From a virus: DNA of 26,400 bases. Location of the stretch: the IMG/VR virus record IMGVR_UViG_3300035698_003365, positions 1 to 26,400 of that record; one strand, written 5' to 3'. Numbering within the stretch: the stretch's first letter is position 1; each line of letters begins with the position of its first letter. Below, one piece after another: positions 1,267 to 21,085 of the stretch. The position numbers were made by a program, and so were the translations under genes. A model generated the notes under the pieces. It saw nothing but the letters and a program-made list of their open reading frames with translations, did no database searches and was not told the origin of the DNA.

Positions 1267-1659
1267 ATGGGAATGACAGTAAGAAGAGTAAAGAAAACTA
1301 TTAAGGAGAAGAGAGCAGATAATGGGTTACTAAAGCCGTCTGCTCGTAGGACTTCCCGTTCAAAGGAAGATCCTACCATACCTCGATTGAATGAGCTTAG
1401 AGAAGCTTTATATCTCTTTGAAAAGCTAAATGGTAAAGAGTTATACAAGCATCTAATAGAAAGAGCTTTTGAAAGTGATGCTGTCCTTGCAGTCCTAATG
1501 AAGAAGTTGGTTCCAGACTTGAAACAAGTATCCGGATCAATAAGCGCAAACATTCATAATACAGTAGACTTTTCTAAACTAACTCAGGAAGAGATTGATG
1601 CCCAACTCAAGTTGTTTAGAGCTTCCCTCTCAGATGGGAATGAAGGAACGAAAGATTAG
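1267..1659 (+). CDS. putative terminase small subunit
   Basis: This 130-aa protein directly precedes and overlaps the large terminase gene, the usual place for TerS, which recognises phage DNA and recruits TerL. It has a very basic N-terminus (about residues 1-35, many K and R). Helical segments follow (about 40-90) with the stretch LMKKLVPDLKQVSG, then an acidic tail. I see no clear helix-turn-helix at the N-terminus, so the call rests mainly on position and size. The start could be ATG 1267 or 1273; the ribosome-binding site is weak (GAAGG, 1260-1264). Confidence 0.5.
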   Translation: MGMTVRRVKKTIKEKRADNGLLKPSARRTSRSKEDPTIPRLNELREALYLFEKLNGKELYKHLIERAFESDAVLAVLMKKLVPDLKQVSGSISANIHNTVDFSKLTQEEIDAQLKLFRASLSDGNEGTKD

Positions 1660-3211
1660 ACTCCTTCAATTTGAAGCTGAGAGTAAGATAAGGAAAGCAA
1701 GAATCTCTTTCTGGGATTACTGCCAGCTTAGGGCTCCTGACTTCTATTTAGATGATAGGCATTATCTCTGGATACTCTGTACCACTCTTCAAGATCTCTA
1801 TGAAGGAAAGCTATTAAGGAATAGACATCCTGATATTCCATATAAGAAACTCATTATTAACATGCCTCCAAGATTTGGTAAGACCAGAACTCTCATTCTA
1901 TTCTGTGAATGGGTATTGGGAGTTAATCCTACAAATAGAATTATTGCTTGTTCTTATAATGATGATGCTGCTTCTGACTTTTCCCGATTCACAAGAGATG
2001 GTATAGCTGAAGAGAAGAATCTTCCTCATCAGATAGTCTTTTCAGATATCTTTCCTTTTAGTAGGATTAAGGAAGGATATGCTTCATTCCATAAATGGGC
2101 TTTAGAAGGACAGTTCTTTAGTTACTTGGGAGCTGGTATAGGAGGATCTATTACTGGTAAAGGTGGAAACATCCTAATCAATGATGATCCCGTTAAGAAT
2201 GCCCAGATAGCTATGAATCAAATAGCTCTTGAGAGCATCTTTAAATGGTATACAGGTACTTTCCTATCAAGAAAAGAAAAGGATGCAATAGAGATACTTA
2301 ATATGACGAGATGGGCTATAGATGATCTCACTGGGAAGGTTAAGGATCTATCTAATTCTTTTCTCTGGTATGAAATCATATTTGAAGCGATGGATGAGGA
2401 AACTGGAGAGATGTTATGTGAGGATATATTATCAAGGGAAGAGTATGAAGAGAAGAAGGTTTCAATGGATCCCATGATCTTCCGGGCTAATTATCATCAG
2501 ATAGCTATTAATGAAGAGGGTAGGCTTTATAAAGAGCTAAAGGAATATGATAGGCTTCCTAAAGACGAGAATAAGAATATTCTATTTGATAGAATCATCA
2601 ATTATACGGATACAGCAGATGAAGGTTCCGATTATCTCTGCTCTATCTCAGCTTTAGAGTATCAAGGGGATGCTTATATCTTAGATGCTTATTATACCAA
2701 AGAAGGAATGGAGATTACTGAAAAGGAAACAGCTTTCCGATTGTCATATAATAATGTAGGGTTGGCTAAGATAGAATCTAATAATGGTGGTAGAGGCTTC
2801 GCAAGGGCTCTTCAAAGAATTCAGCATGAAGAGTATAAGAGAGAAACTTTAATGCTGGAGAAGGAAGTTAAAAAGAAAACAAGAGAAGGTGGGAGCTGGA
2901 TAGAACAGGGAGTGATAGAACAACCTACAATAGAAAGAATAGATGGATGTAGGAAGTGGAAAAGAGTTCCAATCACTTGGTTCCATCAATCCATGAATAA
3001 GAGAGCAAGAATTCTATCTGAATCTAACTATGTGATGCAGCATGTATTCTTTCCTAAGAATTGGCATATCAAATTTCCTGAGTTTCATAAAGCTCTTACA
3101 TTTTATCAGAGAGAAGGAACTAATAAGCATGATGATGCTCCTGATGCTTTAACGGGCTTAGTAGAGATGATTGCAAGAGGTAGACCGAAAGCAAGGATTA
3201 TATCAGCTTAA
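1634..3211 (+). CDS. terL: terminase large subunit (packaging ATPase and nuclease)
   Basis: TerL drives DNA translocation through the portal and cuts concatemers. From ATG 1634 the protein has 525 aa. The ATPase half has a Walker A-type PPRFGKT at about residues 78-84 and a Walker B-type ILINDDP at about 180-186. The nuclease half shows acidic motifs in YTDTADEGSDY (about 325) and DDAPDAL (about 499), with ESNNGG between them. These fit the terminase family with a RNase H-like nuclease. The frame stays open to TTG 1595 or ATG 1598, but those codons overlap the TerS gene and the homologous core begins after residue 20, so 1634 or 1640 is preferred. Confidence 0.93.
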   Translation: MGMKERKIRLLQFEAESKIRKARISFWDYCQLRAPDFYLDDRHYLWILCTTLQDLYEGKLLRNRHPDIPYKKLIINMPPRFGKTRTLILFCEWVLGVNPTNRIIACSYNDDAASDFSRFTRDGIAEEKNLPHQIVFSDIFPFSRIKEGYASFHKWALEGQFFSYLGAGIGGSITGKGGNILINDDPVKNAQIAMNQIALESIFKWYTGTFLSRKEKDAIEILNMTRWAIDDLTGKVKDLSNSFLWYEIIFEAMDEETGEMLCEDILSREEYEEKKVSMDPMIFRANYHQIAINEEGRLYKELKEYDRLPKDENKNILFDRIINYTDTADEGSDYLCSISALEYQGDAYILDAYYTKEGMEITEKETAFRLSYNNVGLAKIESNNGGRGFARALQRIQHEEYKRETLMLEKEVKKKTREGGSWIEQGVIEQPTIERIDGCRKWKRVPITWFHQSMNKRARILSESNYVMQHVFFPKNWHIKFPEFHKALTFYQREGTNKHDDAPDALTGLVEMIARGRPKARIISA

Positions 3212-16782: not shown

Positions 16783-17331
16783 ATGACTGATATGACCATC
16801 ACTCCTACTGCTATTGAATTGGGAGCTTGCCAGATTTCTTTTGGTGGAACTGATTTGGGGGCTTCTTCCGGAGGGGTTACTTTTACTTATACTCCGGGAT
16901 TTGTAGATTTTGTTCCTGATCAGCTCACTATGAAGGTCAAGAAATTCTTGACTTCAGAAACAGCTGAGGTAGTTGTTCCTCTTGCCGAATATACTGTGAA
17001 TAATCTTGAAATAGCTATTCCGGCAGGAACTAAAGTAACTGATGGAACAAATGCTACAAAACAAAAGCTTGATTTCGGTGGAGGCTGTATAGCTACGGCT
17101 GATTATGAAGAGCTTATTTTAACTCCGGTTTCTTGTGGTTCAGGGACTCTTGATACCGATGCAAATCTCAAGGTGACTCTTTATAAGGCAGTAGCTACTT
17201 CAGCTGTTCCTATCGGGTTTAATAAGGATGGAGTTAGAGTTATTGAGGTAACCTTTGATGTTATTCAAGATTCTACGAAAGATGCTGGAAAGCAGCTTGG
17301 TGTTCTTGGTGATGCTACTGCTACTGCATAA
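16783..17331 (+). CDS. major tail (tube) protein
   Basis: The 182-aa, beta-rich protein lies directly between the gp10-like gene and the assembly chaperone genes, the conserved position of the tail tube gene. It contains GACQISFGGTDLGASSGGVT near the start, a strand EVVVPLAEYTVNNLEIAIPA in the middle, and a KDGVRVIEVTFDVIQD strand at the end, a usual pattern for siphovirus tube subunits. AGGGGA (16771-16776) precedes the ATG. No sheath gene lies before it, in agreement with a non-contractile tail. Confidence 0.75.
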   Translation: MTDMTITPTAIELGACQISFGGTDLGASSGGVTFTYTPGFVDFVPDQLTMKVKKFLTSETAEVVVPLAEYTVNNLEIAIPAGTKVTDGTNATKQKLDFGGGCIATADYEELILTPVSCGSGTLDTDANLKVTLYKAVATSAVPIGFNKDGVRVIEVTFDVIQDSTKDAGKQLGVLGDATATA

Positions 17332-17365: not shown

Positions 17366-17848
17366 ATGGTTACTAAAAAGAAAGAAGTTCAAAAAGTTCC
17401 GGAGGTTGTTGAAGAAGAAGAACAAAATATTGAGGAAATGGAAATAACTCAGCCGGAAGATTGGAAAAAGAAACATCTGAATCTTAGGAAAATTAAACTT
17501 CCAAGCGGGGAGGTTTTCCAAGTGAAGGATGTTTCTCTTCCATCTATGGCTACAATGGGGTTTATTCCTCTTCCTCTTTTATCAAGAGTTGTTGAGGTTA
17601 GTCAGGTTTTAGCTAAAAGTGGAAAATCTAAAGACAAACAAGTAGAGAATCTTAAAGAAGATGATATGCATGGATTGGATACTATAGTTAGAAAGGTAGC
17701 TGTTCAAGCTGTGGTGAATCCAAAACTTTCAGAGGATAAAGATGAAGTAGGGACCATTCCTGTAAATGATATCGATTTCTATGATCTACTTTTTGTTTTC
17801 CAAAGTTGTGTAAGAGGAGGAGCGGAGAAATTCTCCAAGTTTTTTTGA
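17366..17848 (+). CDS. tail assembly chaperone, upstream frame (gpG-like)
   Basis: The 160-aa product has an acidic low-complexity N-terminus (about 1-35), a small beta unit (LRKIKLPSGEVFQVKDVSLP) and helical segments (LDTIVRKVAVQAVVNPKLSE, DIDFYDLLFVFQSCVRGG). Such chaperones coat the tape measure before the tube polymerises. It ends in SKFF at AAG TTT TTT TGA (17837-17848), a run of seven T before the stop, the probable site of recoding into the next frame. AAAGGGGAGAAAGG (17351-17364) precedes the ATG. Confidence 0.7.
   Translation: MVTKKKEVQKVPEVVEEEEQNIEEMEITQPEDWKKKHLNLRKIKLPSGEVFQVKDVSLPSMATMGFIPLPLLSRVVEVSQVLAKSGKSKDKQVENLKEDDMHGLDTIVRKVAVQAVVNPKLSEDKDEVGTIPVNDIDFYDLLFVFQSCVRGGAEKFSKFF
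17824..17836 (+). other. hairpin next to the frameshift site
   Basis: GGAGA (17824-17828) pairs with TCTCC (17832-17836) around a 3-nt loop, three bases upstream of the T run. It could influence ribosome slippage. With the following T stretch it also resembles a short terminator, but it lies inside the coding frame. Confidence 0.35.
17840..17846 (+). promoter_or_regulatory. programmed ribosomal frameshift site (+1 or -2)
   Basis: The upstream frame reads TTT TTT TGA. Skipping one T, with the P-site phenylalanine tRNA re-pairing on the next TTT while TGA waits in the A site, gives GAT AAG AAC and continues without interruption into the downstream frame. The arrangement parallels the CTT TGA site of bacterial release factor 2. 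The -1 frame stops at TAA 17863, so -1 slippage is excluded. The downstream frame is open from 17814, so the shift must occur between there and 17846. Confidence 0.65.
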
Positions 17849-18107
17849 TAAGAACTTTCAAGTAATAATGTTGGATAGGCTTTGTGAAAAATATGGGCAG
17901 AGACCTTCTGATGTTTTAGGGATTGAAAATCCAAAAGATAAACTTGATTTTGATATGGCTTTAGTTTTCCAAGCTGGTTATTTGAAAAAGCAGGAAGAGG
18001 ATAAGATTAAGGGAAAAGGAGAAACCCTTCCTAATGAGACAGATTCACAAAGAGTTCAGAGAATAAGAAATCAATTTGCGGTGGTTCAAGGAGTCAAGAA
18101 GGTTTAG
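17847..18107 (+). CDS. tail assembly chaperone, downstream frame (gpT-like)
   Basis: If translated by frameshift, the extension continues DKNFQVIMLDRLCEKYGQRP then SDVLGIENPKDKLDFDMALV, a pattern typical of the second part of tail chaperones (D-x-x-C-x-x-Y-G-x-x-P-S and an L-D-x-A helix). An ATG exists at 17868 but has no Shine-Dalgarno site, which supports expression only as a fusion. The extended form is expected to contact the tape measure protein and tube subunits. It directly precedes the tape measure gene. Confidence 0.65.
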   Translation, partial: DKNFQVIMLDRLCEKYGQRPSDVLGIENPKDKLDFDMALVFQAGYLKKQEEDKIKGKGETLPNETDSQRVQRIRNQFAVVQGVKKV

Positions 18108-18121
18108 GGAGGTGAGTATTA

Positions 18122-21085
18122 GTGGCTGATAATATTAATGCTGGAAATTTAGTGGTTAGCATTTTAACTCAACTAACTGATTTCAAAAAAGGAATTGATA
18201 CAGTTGGGAAGAAGCTTGAAACAACCTCTAAAAAAATAATAAAGAATAAGGATGCCATTAGAAAAGCTGGGATCGCTGTAGGGGCTGTTGGGGCTGCTAT
18301 CACTGCTGTAATGGCCTTAGCTGTAAGAGATGCCGCTCGCCTTGGGGATCAATATCAGAAGATGTCCCTGAGAACTGGAGAGGCTGCTGATACTTTATCT
18401 TCTCTTGCTTTCGTAGCTGAACGATCAGGATCAAGTATTCAAGTTATTGAGAAGGCTATTAAAAGAGCTGCTGTAAATATGAATGATGCCTCCAGAGGGA
18501 TAGGGGAGGCTAAGGATGCTTTTGAAGAACTTGGAATTACTGTTACTGAAGCTGATGGTTCTTTAAAAACTGGTTCTCAGATCCTTCTGGATTTTGCTGA
18601 TGCTACAAAAGATATGACAGATAATACTCTAAAGGCAGCTTTAGCTCAGGATATCTTTGGAAGAGCTGGAACTGAACTTCTTCCTTTCTTTGCTGAAGGT
18701 TCTGCTGGGATAAAAGAACTTCAGGAAGAGGCTGCAAGATATGGAGTAGTAATAGGAGATATTGCTGCTGGTGAAGCTGCTGAGTTTACTGATGCAATGT
18801 CAAATTTAAAAGCTTCTCTTAGAGGAATTTTTCTTACTCTTGGACAAGACCTTATTCCGAAATTAACTCCCTTGATAAATGGAATGGCCGATGTTACTTC
18901 TAATATAACAGAATTTTTACGAGAACATCCAAATATGACTTCTTTTTTAGTAGCTTTTACAACGGCTCTTGGAGCTGTAGCTACTGCTATTGGAGCAATA
19001 ATGGTAATAGGAGTTGGACTCCCAGCTTTCATTGCCGGTATTGCTGGTCTTGGAATATCTTTAGGAACTGCTGGAATAATTCTTGGAGGTTTGGCTGCTT
19101 TTGCTGCAGCTATTGCTTTATTAGGTACTAATTGGAATAACATAAAAGCTATATTTGAAACCGCTTGGGATGAGGGAATTAAACCAATAATAACAGGTTT
19201 GGGTGATGCTTTTGAAACAGCTTGGGGGATTATTGAGCCTCTTATAGAAGATTTAACCGATCCTCTTATCTCTGATTTAAAATCAGGAGTAGATGATTTA
19301 AAGGATGCTTTTGGTTTTGTATGGGATAAAGTTAAAGAAGTATTTGAATTAATAGTTCCTATAATTACAGATTTTACTGTAGTAACTTTTGGGGCTTTAT
19401 TATTAGTTCTTGAAGAGGCGATAGATGGTTGGATACTTATCTGGGATGCTGTTAAAGCTGCTTTTGATTTAATAAGACCTGTTTTAGAAAAAATAGTAGA
19501 TGTTACTTTAGCTGCTTTAATAGTAACAATGGATACAATAAAAGGTGGATGGGATTTAATTTGGAAAGAGGTTAAGTCTGCTTTCGATTCAATTGAAACT
19601 AAAGTAGTTGATGTATCCTCAGCTATTTGGACTGCTCTTGACCCTGTCATAACTGGAGCAATAGAGGGATTTGGTTTTGTTTGGGATGCTGTTAGAAATG
19701 CTTTTAATTCTATAAAAAATAAAGTTTATGGACAAGATGGTGTTATAACAAGAATGCTTGGTGCATTTAATAATTTATTTCATGGTCTTGGGATTGAGAT
19801 TCCTGCTCTTTCTACTTTATGGGAAGCAGTAGGAACTGAAGTTAAAGATACAGTAGGGGATGAAACTTCTGGGATTATTGGAAAATGGAATGCTGTAAAA
19901 GATAAATTTGCTGAAAATATGGATGATATTGTAGAAGATAGTGGAGATGCGATGGATGATGTTGTTACCGCTAATGAGGATGCTGAGTCAAGTCTTGATG
20001 GAATAAGAGAGACTTGGTTTTTTGAAGAGGAAGAAAAAAATCGTAAATTTCGTGAAGCTGAGGATATAAGAATAGCTGAATCTCTTGCAGCTTATATAAA
20101 ATTAAAAGAGGATGAGTTAAGAGAAGAGGAAAATTTTTTAGCTAATTTAATAACTAAATATGGTCCTAATTTAACAGAACAAGAAAGACTTCATGCTTTA
20201 TCCTTAAAGCAAAGAGGGGAAGATTATCAAGCTTATATTGATAATCTCCTTGAACTTTCTAAATGGGAACAATTCTGGAAAGATATAACAGATGGATTTG
20301 CTGGAGCTTTTGAAGATGCTCTTGGAGAGTTTTATGAAACTCTTTTAGAGGGTGGTGGCTGGAGTAATGCTTTTAAAGAAGCTGGGGAAGTTTTTAAAAG
20401 AGCTATGATTCAAGCTACTTCTGATTTACTTGCTGAATGGACTATAGGATTCTTTGCTGATGTAATAGGTGAAATCACAGGATGGTTTTCTCTTCTCAAT
20501 CAAATTCCTTCTGCTGGTAAAATATCTATTGGCAATAAACTATCTACAGCAAGAGGAGCTGCAGAAAATTTAACTGGGGAATTAAATCCTCTCGGTCAAC
20601 AGCAAGTTGGCCCTGAAGTTATTCCAACGTATACTTTAGATGGTCCAGCAGCTATTGCTTTAGCTATAGCTAATCTTGGAATTGATATAGTTAAAACATT
20701 AGGAACTGGAGTAATTGATATTCTTGATTCTTTATTTGGTAAAGATATAAAACATCAATTTACTCAAGTTGAACTTGATCATTTTCTTGGTGGTCCGCAA
20801 GCTTTTGATATTACAAGTGGGGGTCTCTCAAAGATTGCTGGTAGTTTTGCGATGGGAGGAATTATCCCCGGAGCAGAGGGACAATCTCAATTAGTTGTTG
20901 GTCATGGTGGAGAAGAAGTTTTAACGAGAGATGATTCAAGACATTCTATGAATAGAGGTGGAGGAATCTCAGTTACAATCACTGGGAATAATATTAATAG
21001 TGAATTGGATATAAGAAGATTAGGGGAAGCTGCAGGTGAAGCTATATTGAATCAATTAAAACTCCAAACTAAGTTTGTGAGATAA
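18122..21085 (+). CDS. tape measure protein
   Basis: The longest gene here (987 aa), starting at GTG after GGGAGGTGAG (18107-18116). Tape measure proteins set tail length; at about 0.15 nm per residue a tail near 150 nm is suggested. A membrane-like segment (about 50-68) and a long one (about 272-338) may form the ejection channel. Residues 70-190 (DAARLGDQYQKMSLRTGEAA through LPFFAEG) match the phage minor tail/TP901-type core. Residues 399-558 hold four units of exactly 40 residues with W-D-x-V-K/R. A charged coiled coil (about 630-715) and a C-terminal GGIIPGAEG ... GGEEVLTRDD follow. Confidence 0.9.
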   Translation: MADNINAGNLVVSILTQLTDFKKGIDTVGKKLETTSKKIIKNKDAIRKAGIAVGAVGAAITAVMALAVRDAARLGDQYQKMSLRTGEAADTLSSLAFVAERSGSSIQVIEKAIKRAAVNMNDASRGIGEAKDAFEELGITVTEADGSLKTGSQILLDFADATKDMTDNTLKAALAQDIFGRAGTELLPFFAEGSAGIKELQEEAARYGVVIGDIAAGEAAEFTDAMSNLKASLRGIFLTLGQDLIPKLTPLINGMADVTSNITEFLREHPNMTSFLVAFTTALGAVATAIGAIMVIGVGLPAFIAGIAGLGISLGTAGIILGGLAAFAAAIALLGTNWNNIKAIFETAWDEGIKPIITGLGDAFETAWGIIEPLIEDLTDPLISDLKSGVDDLKDAFGFVWDKVKEVFELIVPIITDFTVVTFGALLLVLEEAIDGWILIWDAVKAAFDLIRPVLEKIVDVTLAALIVTMDTIKGGWDLIWKEVKSAFDSIETKVVDVSSAIWTALDPVITGAIEGFGFVWDAVRNAFNSIKNKVYGQDGVITRMLGAFNNLFHGLGIEIPALSTLWEAVGTEVKDTVGDETSGIIGKWNAVKDKFAENMDDIVEDSGDAMDDVVTANEDAESSLDGIRETWFFEEEEKNRKFREAEDIRIAESLAAYIKLKEDELREEENFLANLITKYGPNLTEQERLHALSLKQRGEDYQAYIDNLLELSKWEQFWKDITDGFAGAFEDALGEFYETLLEGGGWSNAFKEAGEVFKRAMIQATSDLLAEWTIGFFADVIGEITGWFSLLNQIPSAGKISIGNKLSTARGAAENLTGELNPLGQQQVGPEVIPTYTLDGPAAIALAIANLGIDIVKTLGTGVIDILDSLFGKDIKHQFTQVELDHFLGGPQAFDITSGGLSKIAGSFAMGGIIPGAEGQSQLVVGHGGEEVLTRDDSRHSMNRGGGISVTITGNNINSELDIRRLGEAAGEAILNQLKLQTKFVR
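19316..19795 (+). repeat. 120-bp degenerate tandem repeat in tape measure gene
   Basis: Four units of 120 bp (19316-19435, 19436-19555, 19556-19675, 19676-19795) each start with codons for F/L-V/I-W-D/K-x-V-K/R-x-x-F-x-x-I. The register is exact to the base for all four starts. Outside the conserved start the units have diverged. A looser W-containing copy precedes them (about 19160-19250). Confidence 0.75.

Follow-up and report, generated by a model that had tools for sequence, protein, structure and literature searches.

The window (the whole stretch of DNA analysed, 26,400 nucleotides, positions 1 to 26,400 of IMG/VR virus record IMGVR_UViG_3300035698_003365) is a tailed-phage structural region with terminase, portal, capsid and tail genes. 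Two overlapping reading frames, here termed G and T, lie between the genes for the major tail protein and the tape measure protein (Table 1), which is the placement of a lambda G/GT-type gene pair. The genes neighbouring G and T are intact.

Table 1. Features of the G/T locus, with positions in the window
Feature	Position	Strand	Basis
Major tail protein (Ig-like), gene before G	16783..17331	+	phrog_2175 E 7e-27, phrog_885 major tail protein
G: N-terminal product (160 aa) of a probable tail assembly chaperone gene, with TGA as its stop	17366..17848	+	PF24117, phrog_6280, phrog_4336, position, predicted fold
SD-like AGGAGG, 19-22 nt upstream of slip codon	17815..17820	+	enrichment among loci, post hoc
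Putative slip site TTT TTT TGA (T7 + stop), with a Phe codon in the P site and UGA in the A site	17840..17848	+	aligns with the family's invariant Phe column
T: +1-frame extension, 86 aa, DKNFQV...GVKKV	17847..18107	+	phrog_6541 match, profile comparison
ATG within T, an unlikely initiation codon	17868..17870	+	only 3-nt SD match upstream
Tape measure protein, gene after T	18122..21085	+	phrog_8462 tail length tape measure E 4e-52

The 3' end of G reads AAG (17837), TTT (17840), TTT (17843) and TGA (17846), with the seven-T run at 17840-17846. The frame of T, with GAT at 17847 as its first codon, is open upstream to 17814 and hence across the G stop, giving an overlap of 35 nt. Its offset relative to G is +1 (or -2). 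The -1 frame meets a TAA at 17863, so the downstream frame does not lie where a canonical -1 slippery heptamer would deliver the ribosome. T has no evident translation start of its own: only a 3-nt match to a Shine-Dalgarno (SD) sequence precedes the ATG at 17868, unlike the good SD sequences read upstream of G and of the tape measure gene. An earlier sequence-only reading had described these frames and the poorly served ATG, and both descriptions were confirmed. An open +1 frame of 97 codons at the end of G has a probability of about 0.0009 under a first-order random model. Among the 34 genes of the window, G alone ends in TTT TGA; runs of seven T occur four times on the plus strand of the 26.4 kb and are thus not rare.

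G matched DUF7391 (PF24117) with an E-value of 1.1e-8, above the Pfam cut-off, as well as phrog_6280 (E 2.4e-7) and phrog_4336, annotated as 'tail assembly chaperone' (E 2.1e-6). T matched phrog_6541 (E 1e-5). The AlphaFold2 model of G (pLDDT 74) matches tail assembly chaperones of Arthrobacter phage Wollypog and several mycobacteriophages among the predicted structures of BFVD, with a probability of 1.00. A comparison of the G model with the PDB gave no reliable match, the HK97 chaperone 2ob9 appearing weakly at E 7.8. Pairwise identity to the nearest homologues is only about 20-30%, so homology was tested by profile comparison and not by BLAST alone. Against an alignment of 24 relatives, G scored P 87% and E 4.5e-6; T, compared with the T domains of 24 relatives, scored P 94% and E 1.2e-7. 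The relatives share the same PHROG families, phrog_6280 being found in 24/24 G domains and phrog_6541 in 22/24 T domains. By homology of both G and T, the window locus belongs to this phrog_6280/phrog_6541 chaperone family, and two PHROG families of unknown function are thereby joined into one predicted frameshifted tail chaperone and given a role.

Homologues of both halves were found at 39 further loci, and in Predator, which was found afterwards by fold. Their sources are uncultured viruses and phages or prophages whose hosts are Bacillota or Actinomycetota. A phrog_6541 search of bacterial genomes gave two loci with both halves, which served as starting points. Further searches added Dulem virus 36, bajarodcaudo virus 5, Streptococcus phages Dp-1 and MS1, Bacillus phage BSP7, two more genome loci, 23 IMG/VR loci, virus Rctr41k, Gordonia phages Terapin, Suzy and DumpTruck, Curtobacterium phage Shrew, and Microbacterium and Arthrobacter phages; the spring-water phage MW202444 was reached via the T domain. 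Exact duplicates were removed from the 39-locus table, in which several near-identical pairs remain. With the searches used, neither IMG/VR nor INPHARED nor the GTDB genomes yielded a close relative of the window. Searches with the chaperone, tape measure and tail proteins and with alignments, run on IMG/VR and the GTDB genomes, gave none either; the single-protein scans used exact 8-residue words, which moderately diverged relatives may have escaped. When bacterial genomes were searched by phylum, those sampled contained only four homologues, and the TGA variant did not recur. Relatives of the terminase shared no chaperone with the window in the records examined.

An alignment of the junction in related phages, proposed in the sequence-only reading as a check, speaks against separate genes. 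T is in the +1 register in 40/40 homologous loci (the 39 in the table and Predator), and the junction in all of them is a TTT followed by C, once by T. The overlap of each relative contains exactly one such codon. The A-site codon is CGT in 29 loci, CGC in 7 (Predator included), CCT in 2, TCT in 1 and CTG in 1; TGA occupies this position in the window alone among all loci compared. The window thus shares with the family the +1 register of T and a UUU followed by a pyrimidine (here U) at the conserved Phe, and lacks the CGN in the A site found in 35 of the 39 other loci and in Predator. CGN is also missing from L019, L046, L057 and L064 and is therefore usual for the family, not defining. The junctions of these four loci (L064 is phage Triscuit) provide TTT_CTG, TTT_TCT and TTT_CCT as natural A-site variants.

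The slip codon falls on an invariant Phe column in two alignments (A7 and A10). The RPS motif of T lies 18 residues from this Phe, as counted on the sequences of the window, Dp-1, Dulem virus 36 and bajarodcaudo virus 5. The TTT is retained even in the GC-rich phages Aesir, TinyMiny and Gilda despite their preference for TTC; in these three the region's roughly 30 Phe codons include no other TTT. From local codon use, the chance of TTT at every site was estimated at about 1e-7 to 1e-8 (30 loci, relatedness ignored). The slip codon lies 2 to 39 codons before the G stop in relatives and 0 codons before it in the window. Predator, reached only via a structure match, provided an out-of-sample check: the predicted site was then confirmed as ACC_TTT_CGC, with T at +1. 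Six phages served as controls (SSU5, nickie, RHEph10, GBK2, S-CBS1 and Shpa); they resemble the window in their tape measure, tail or terminase proteins but have chaperones of other families. All have the second frame at -1 (6/6); the +1 offset is therefore not an artefact of such gene pairs.

The locus is very probably a lambda G/GT-type tail assembly chaperone gene with a +1 shift at TTT TGA, as judged from sequence and homology. The earlier suggestion that a +1 (or -2) shift joins the two chaperone frames at TTT TTT TGA is thus supported by 40 homologous loci, with +1 favoured over -2. Most ribosomes would terminate at the TGA at 17846 and release G. A minority would pause while peptidyl-tRNA-Phe occupies UUU and the A site holds the UGA stop; the tRNA would slip one base forward, from UUU to UUU within the seven U, and reading would resume at GAU AAG AAC to give a G-T fusion (SKFF-DKNFQV...) of about 246 aa. 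By analogy with lambda, G would bind the tape measure protein, and the T domain would probably recruit the tail tube protein. What we observe is the frames, the homology of both halves and the +1 register with UUU_Y throughout the family; the slip and its efficiency are inferred. At the sites of all family members, the Phe tRNA in the P site would sit on UUU and be able to re-pair one base forward on UUC or UUU. UUU_Ynn allows ready +1 shifting by bacterial ribosomes (Atkins 2016, PMC5009743), and at UCC_UUU_CGU in a eukaryotic virus the +1 shift was shown by mass spectrometry (PMC3498833).

A -2 ribosomal frameshift on the seven T, which is the mechanism in phage Mu (PMC5009743), would reach the identical frame with one extra Phe (SKFFFDKN), and the run would let tRNA-Phe re-pair two bases back. 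It is nevertheless unlikely here: family sites of the form NNC_TTT_CGT do not permit this re-pairing of Phe, all of them permit UUU to UUC at +1, and parsimony favours +1. The usual sites of the family would offer no re-pairing after a -2 slip, so the ancestral direction was probably +1. For the window itself, where the seven T would permit -2 too, the direction is provisionally assigned by homology.

Transcript slippage on such homopolymer runs is known (reviewed in PMC5009743), and slippage of RNA polymerase on the seven T could shorten the run to six U in some transcripts and so place G and T in one frame. This is very improbable, because nearly all relatives have only three T and must therefore shift on the ribosome, and because seven T are short for efficient slippage. 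An assembly error or a mutation in the T run is equally improbable. With eight T the site would be a textbook -1 heptamer (T_TTT_TTG) and the T domain would lie in the -1 frame; with six T the two frames would simply be fused. Homopolymers are error-prone in some sequencing methods, and the contig stands alone. T lies at +1 in every homologue, however, and in none at -1 or in frame, and the neighbouring genes are not disrupted. Conservation in the relatives argues against a sequencing error, against an ancestral -1 site with eight T and against two independent genes. The last of these, two separately translated genes with incidental proximity and offset, is the least credible: termination at 17846 could feed re-initiation at the ATG at 17868, but this ATG has no SD sequence, the frame of T extends upstream past the G stop without interruption, start codons are missing from the early part of T in several relatives (none within the first 26 T codons of L019, L034 and L043), and the conserved Phe and TTT at the junction would be left unexplained.

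Returning to the +1 shift at TTT TGA, candidate stimulatory elements were considered. The hairpin GGAGA (17824-17828)/TCTCC (17832-17836) pointed out earlier is present and stops 3 nt short of the T run; its folding, however, is no better than that of shuffled sequences (z -0.74 and -1.48; 51/200 and 16/200 as good), and it is probably due to chance. The region downstream, at 17849-17950, folds more stably than shuffles (z -2.35, 3/200; window only). In 9/33 loci an SD-like element precedes the slip codon by 14-23 nt (the window, L019, L042, L055, L058 and L062-L065), compared with 2.4 expected from synonymous-codon shuffles, in a test chosen after the pattern had been seen and on loci that are not independent. 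Its spacing fits neither prfB nor dnaX, nor any known rule.

The likeness to the release-factor-2 recoding site held in part. The window has UGA in the A site and would allow the +1 re-pairing of UUU to UUU, as in the P-site tRNA slips of prfB (CUU_UGA) and of tsh of a Listeria phage (CCC_UGA) (PMC5009743, PMC10274946), which are other genes with other P-site codons. prfB needs an SD sequence 3 nt upstream of the slip codon, and the window has none there; a prfB-like SD was rejected on spacing, the nearest strong one (AGGAGG) being 19-22 nt upstream. The expectation of an uncommon variant also held in part, for the stop codon in the A site and not for the +1 direction, which is the rule in this chaperone family.

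Tail chaperones are known to use -1, -2 or +1 shifts in different phages (Atkins et al., PMC5009743). Phages lambda and Mu have the gene position and two-product logic of the window, with shifts of -1 and -2, respectively. Several actinophage records already carry tail chaperone annotations with a +1 shift: the length of the joined G-T CDS in the SEA-PHAGES records of Aesir, Wollypog, TinyMiny and Gilda fits a +1 join only, and the training cases of PRFect from SEA-PHAGES include 350 forward sites (PMC10274946). These four and Terapin, Suzy and Predator (DUF7391/phrog_4336) have a homologous or same-fold chaperone before the tape measure gene with T at +1; their TTT_CGT or TTT_CGC lies 22-39 codons before the G stop, whereas the TTT_TGA of the window is at the stop itself. 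In Dp-1, MS1, Dulem virus 36, bajarodcaudo virus 5 and BSP7 (phrog_6280 and phrog_6541), both domains are homologous to those of the window and in the +1 register, with TTT_CGT at the site in place of TTT_TGA. For the tail chaperones of HF1-group haloviruses and HSTV-2 a +1 shift at a TTT-CGC motif has been proposed (PMC7230728; PMC5009743); the likeness is one of direction and motif, and the hosts are archaea. The UUU_CGN motif of the phage relatives is identical to that of influenza A PA-X (UCC_UUU_CGU) and the amalgaviruses, where +1 shifting was found by mass spectrometry (PMC3498833), but those genes are unrelated, CGN is rare in the hosts, and the window has UGA, not CGN. A literature search, made largely without subscription papers, found neither this chaperone family described as a bacteriophage UUU_CGN family nor a UUU_UGA tail chaperone site. 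Tail chaperones in phages of Bacillota and of Actinomycetota have conserved the UUU_CGN +1 motif, which is best known from eukaryotic viruses.

On comparison of the loci, the UUU_UGA of the window can be regarded as a derived variant of the family's usual UUU_CGN, and as a naturally occurring one with which to explore the A-site feature that drives the shift. One tentative and rather doubtful extension is that, with a stop in place of the sense codon, slipping competes with termination and the site acts as a tail chaperone switch sensitive to release factor 2. In that case the ratio of G to G-T, and hence tail assembly, would depend on the level of release factor 2 in the host.

The terminase (1595-3211) shares 50% identity with that of Geobacillus phage GBK2 and 48% with that of an Alkalicoccobacillus gibsonii locus, which suggests a Bacillota host. 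The major tail protein has its closest matches, at about 30% identity, among the Ig-domain tail proteins of SSU5-type phage-plasmids, whose chaperones are of a different family with a -1 offset; tail tube and chaperone therefore appear to have been exchanged independently.

Annotators usually call T a separate hypothetical gene or overlook it. It is a separate hypothetical gene in the records of Dp-1, MS1, Dulem virus 36 and bajarodcaudo virus 5, unannotated in BSP7 (L034) and a misc_feature in Rctr41k (L058). All of these records (L026-L029, L034 and L058) could be corrected to a +1 joined CDS.
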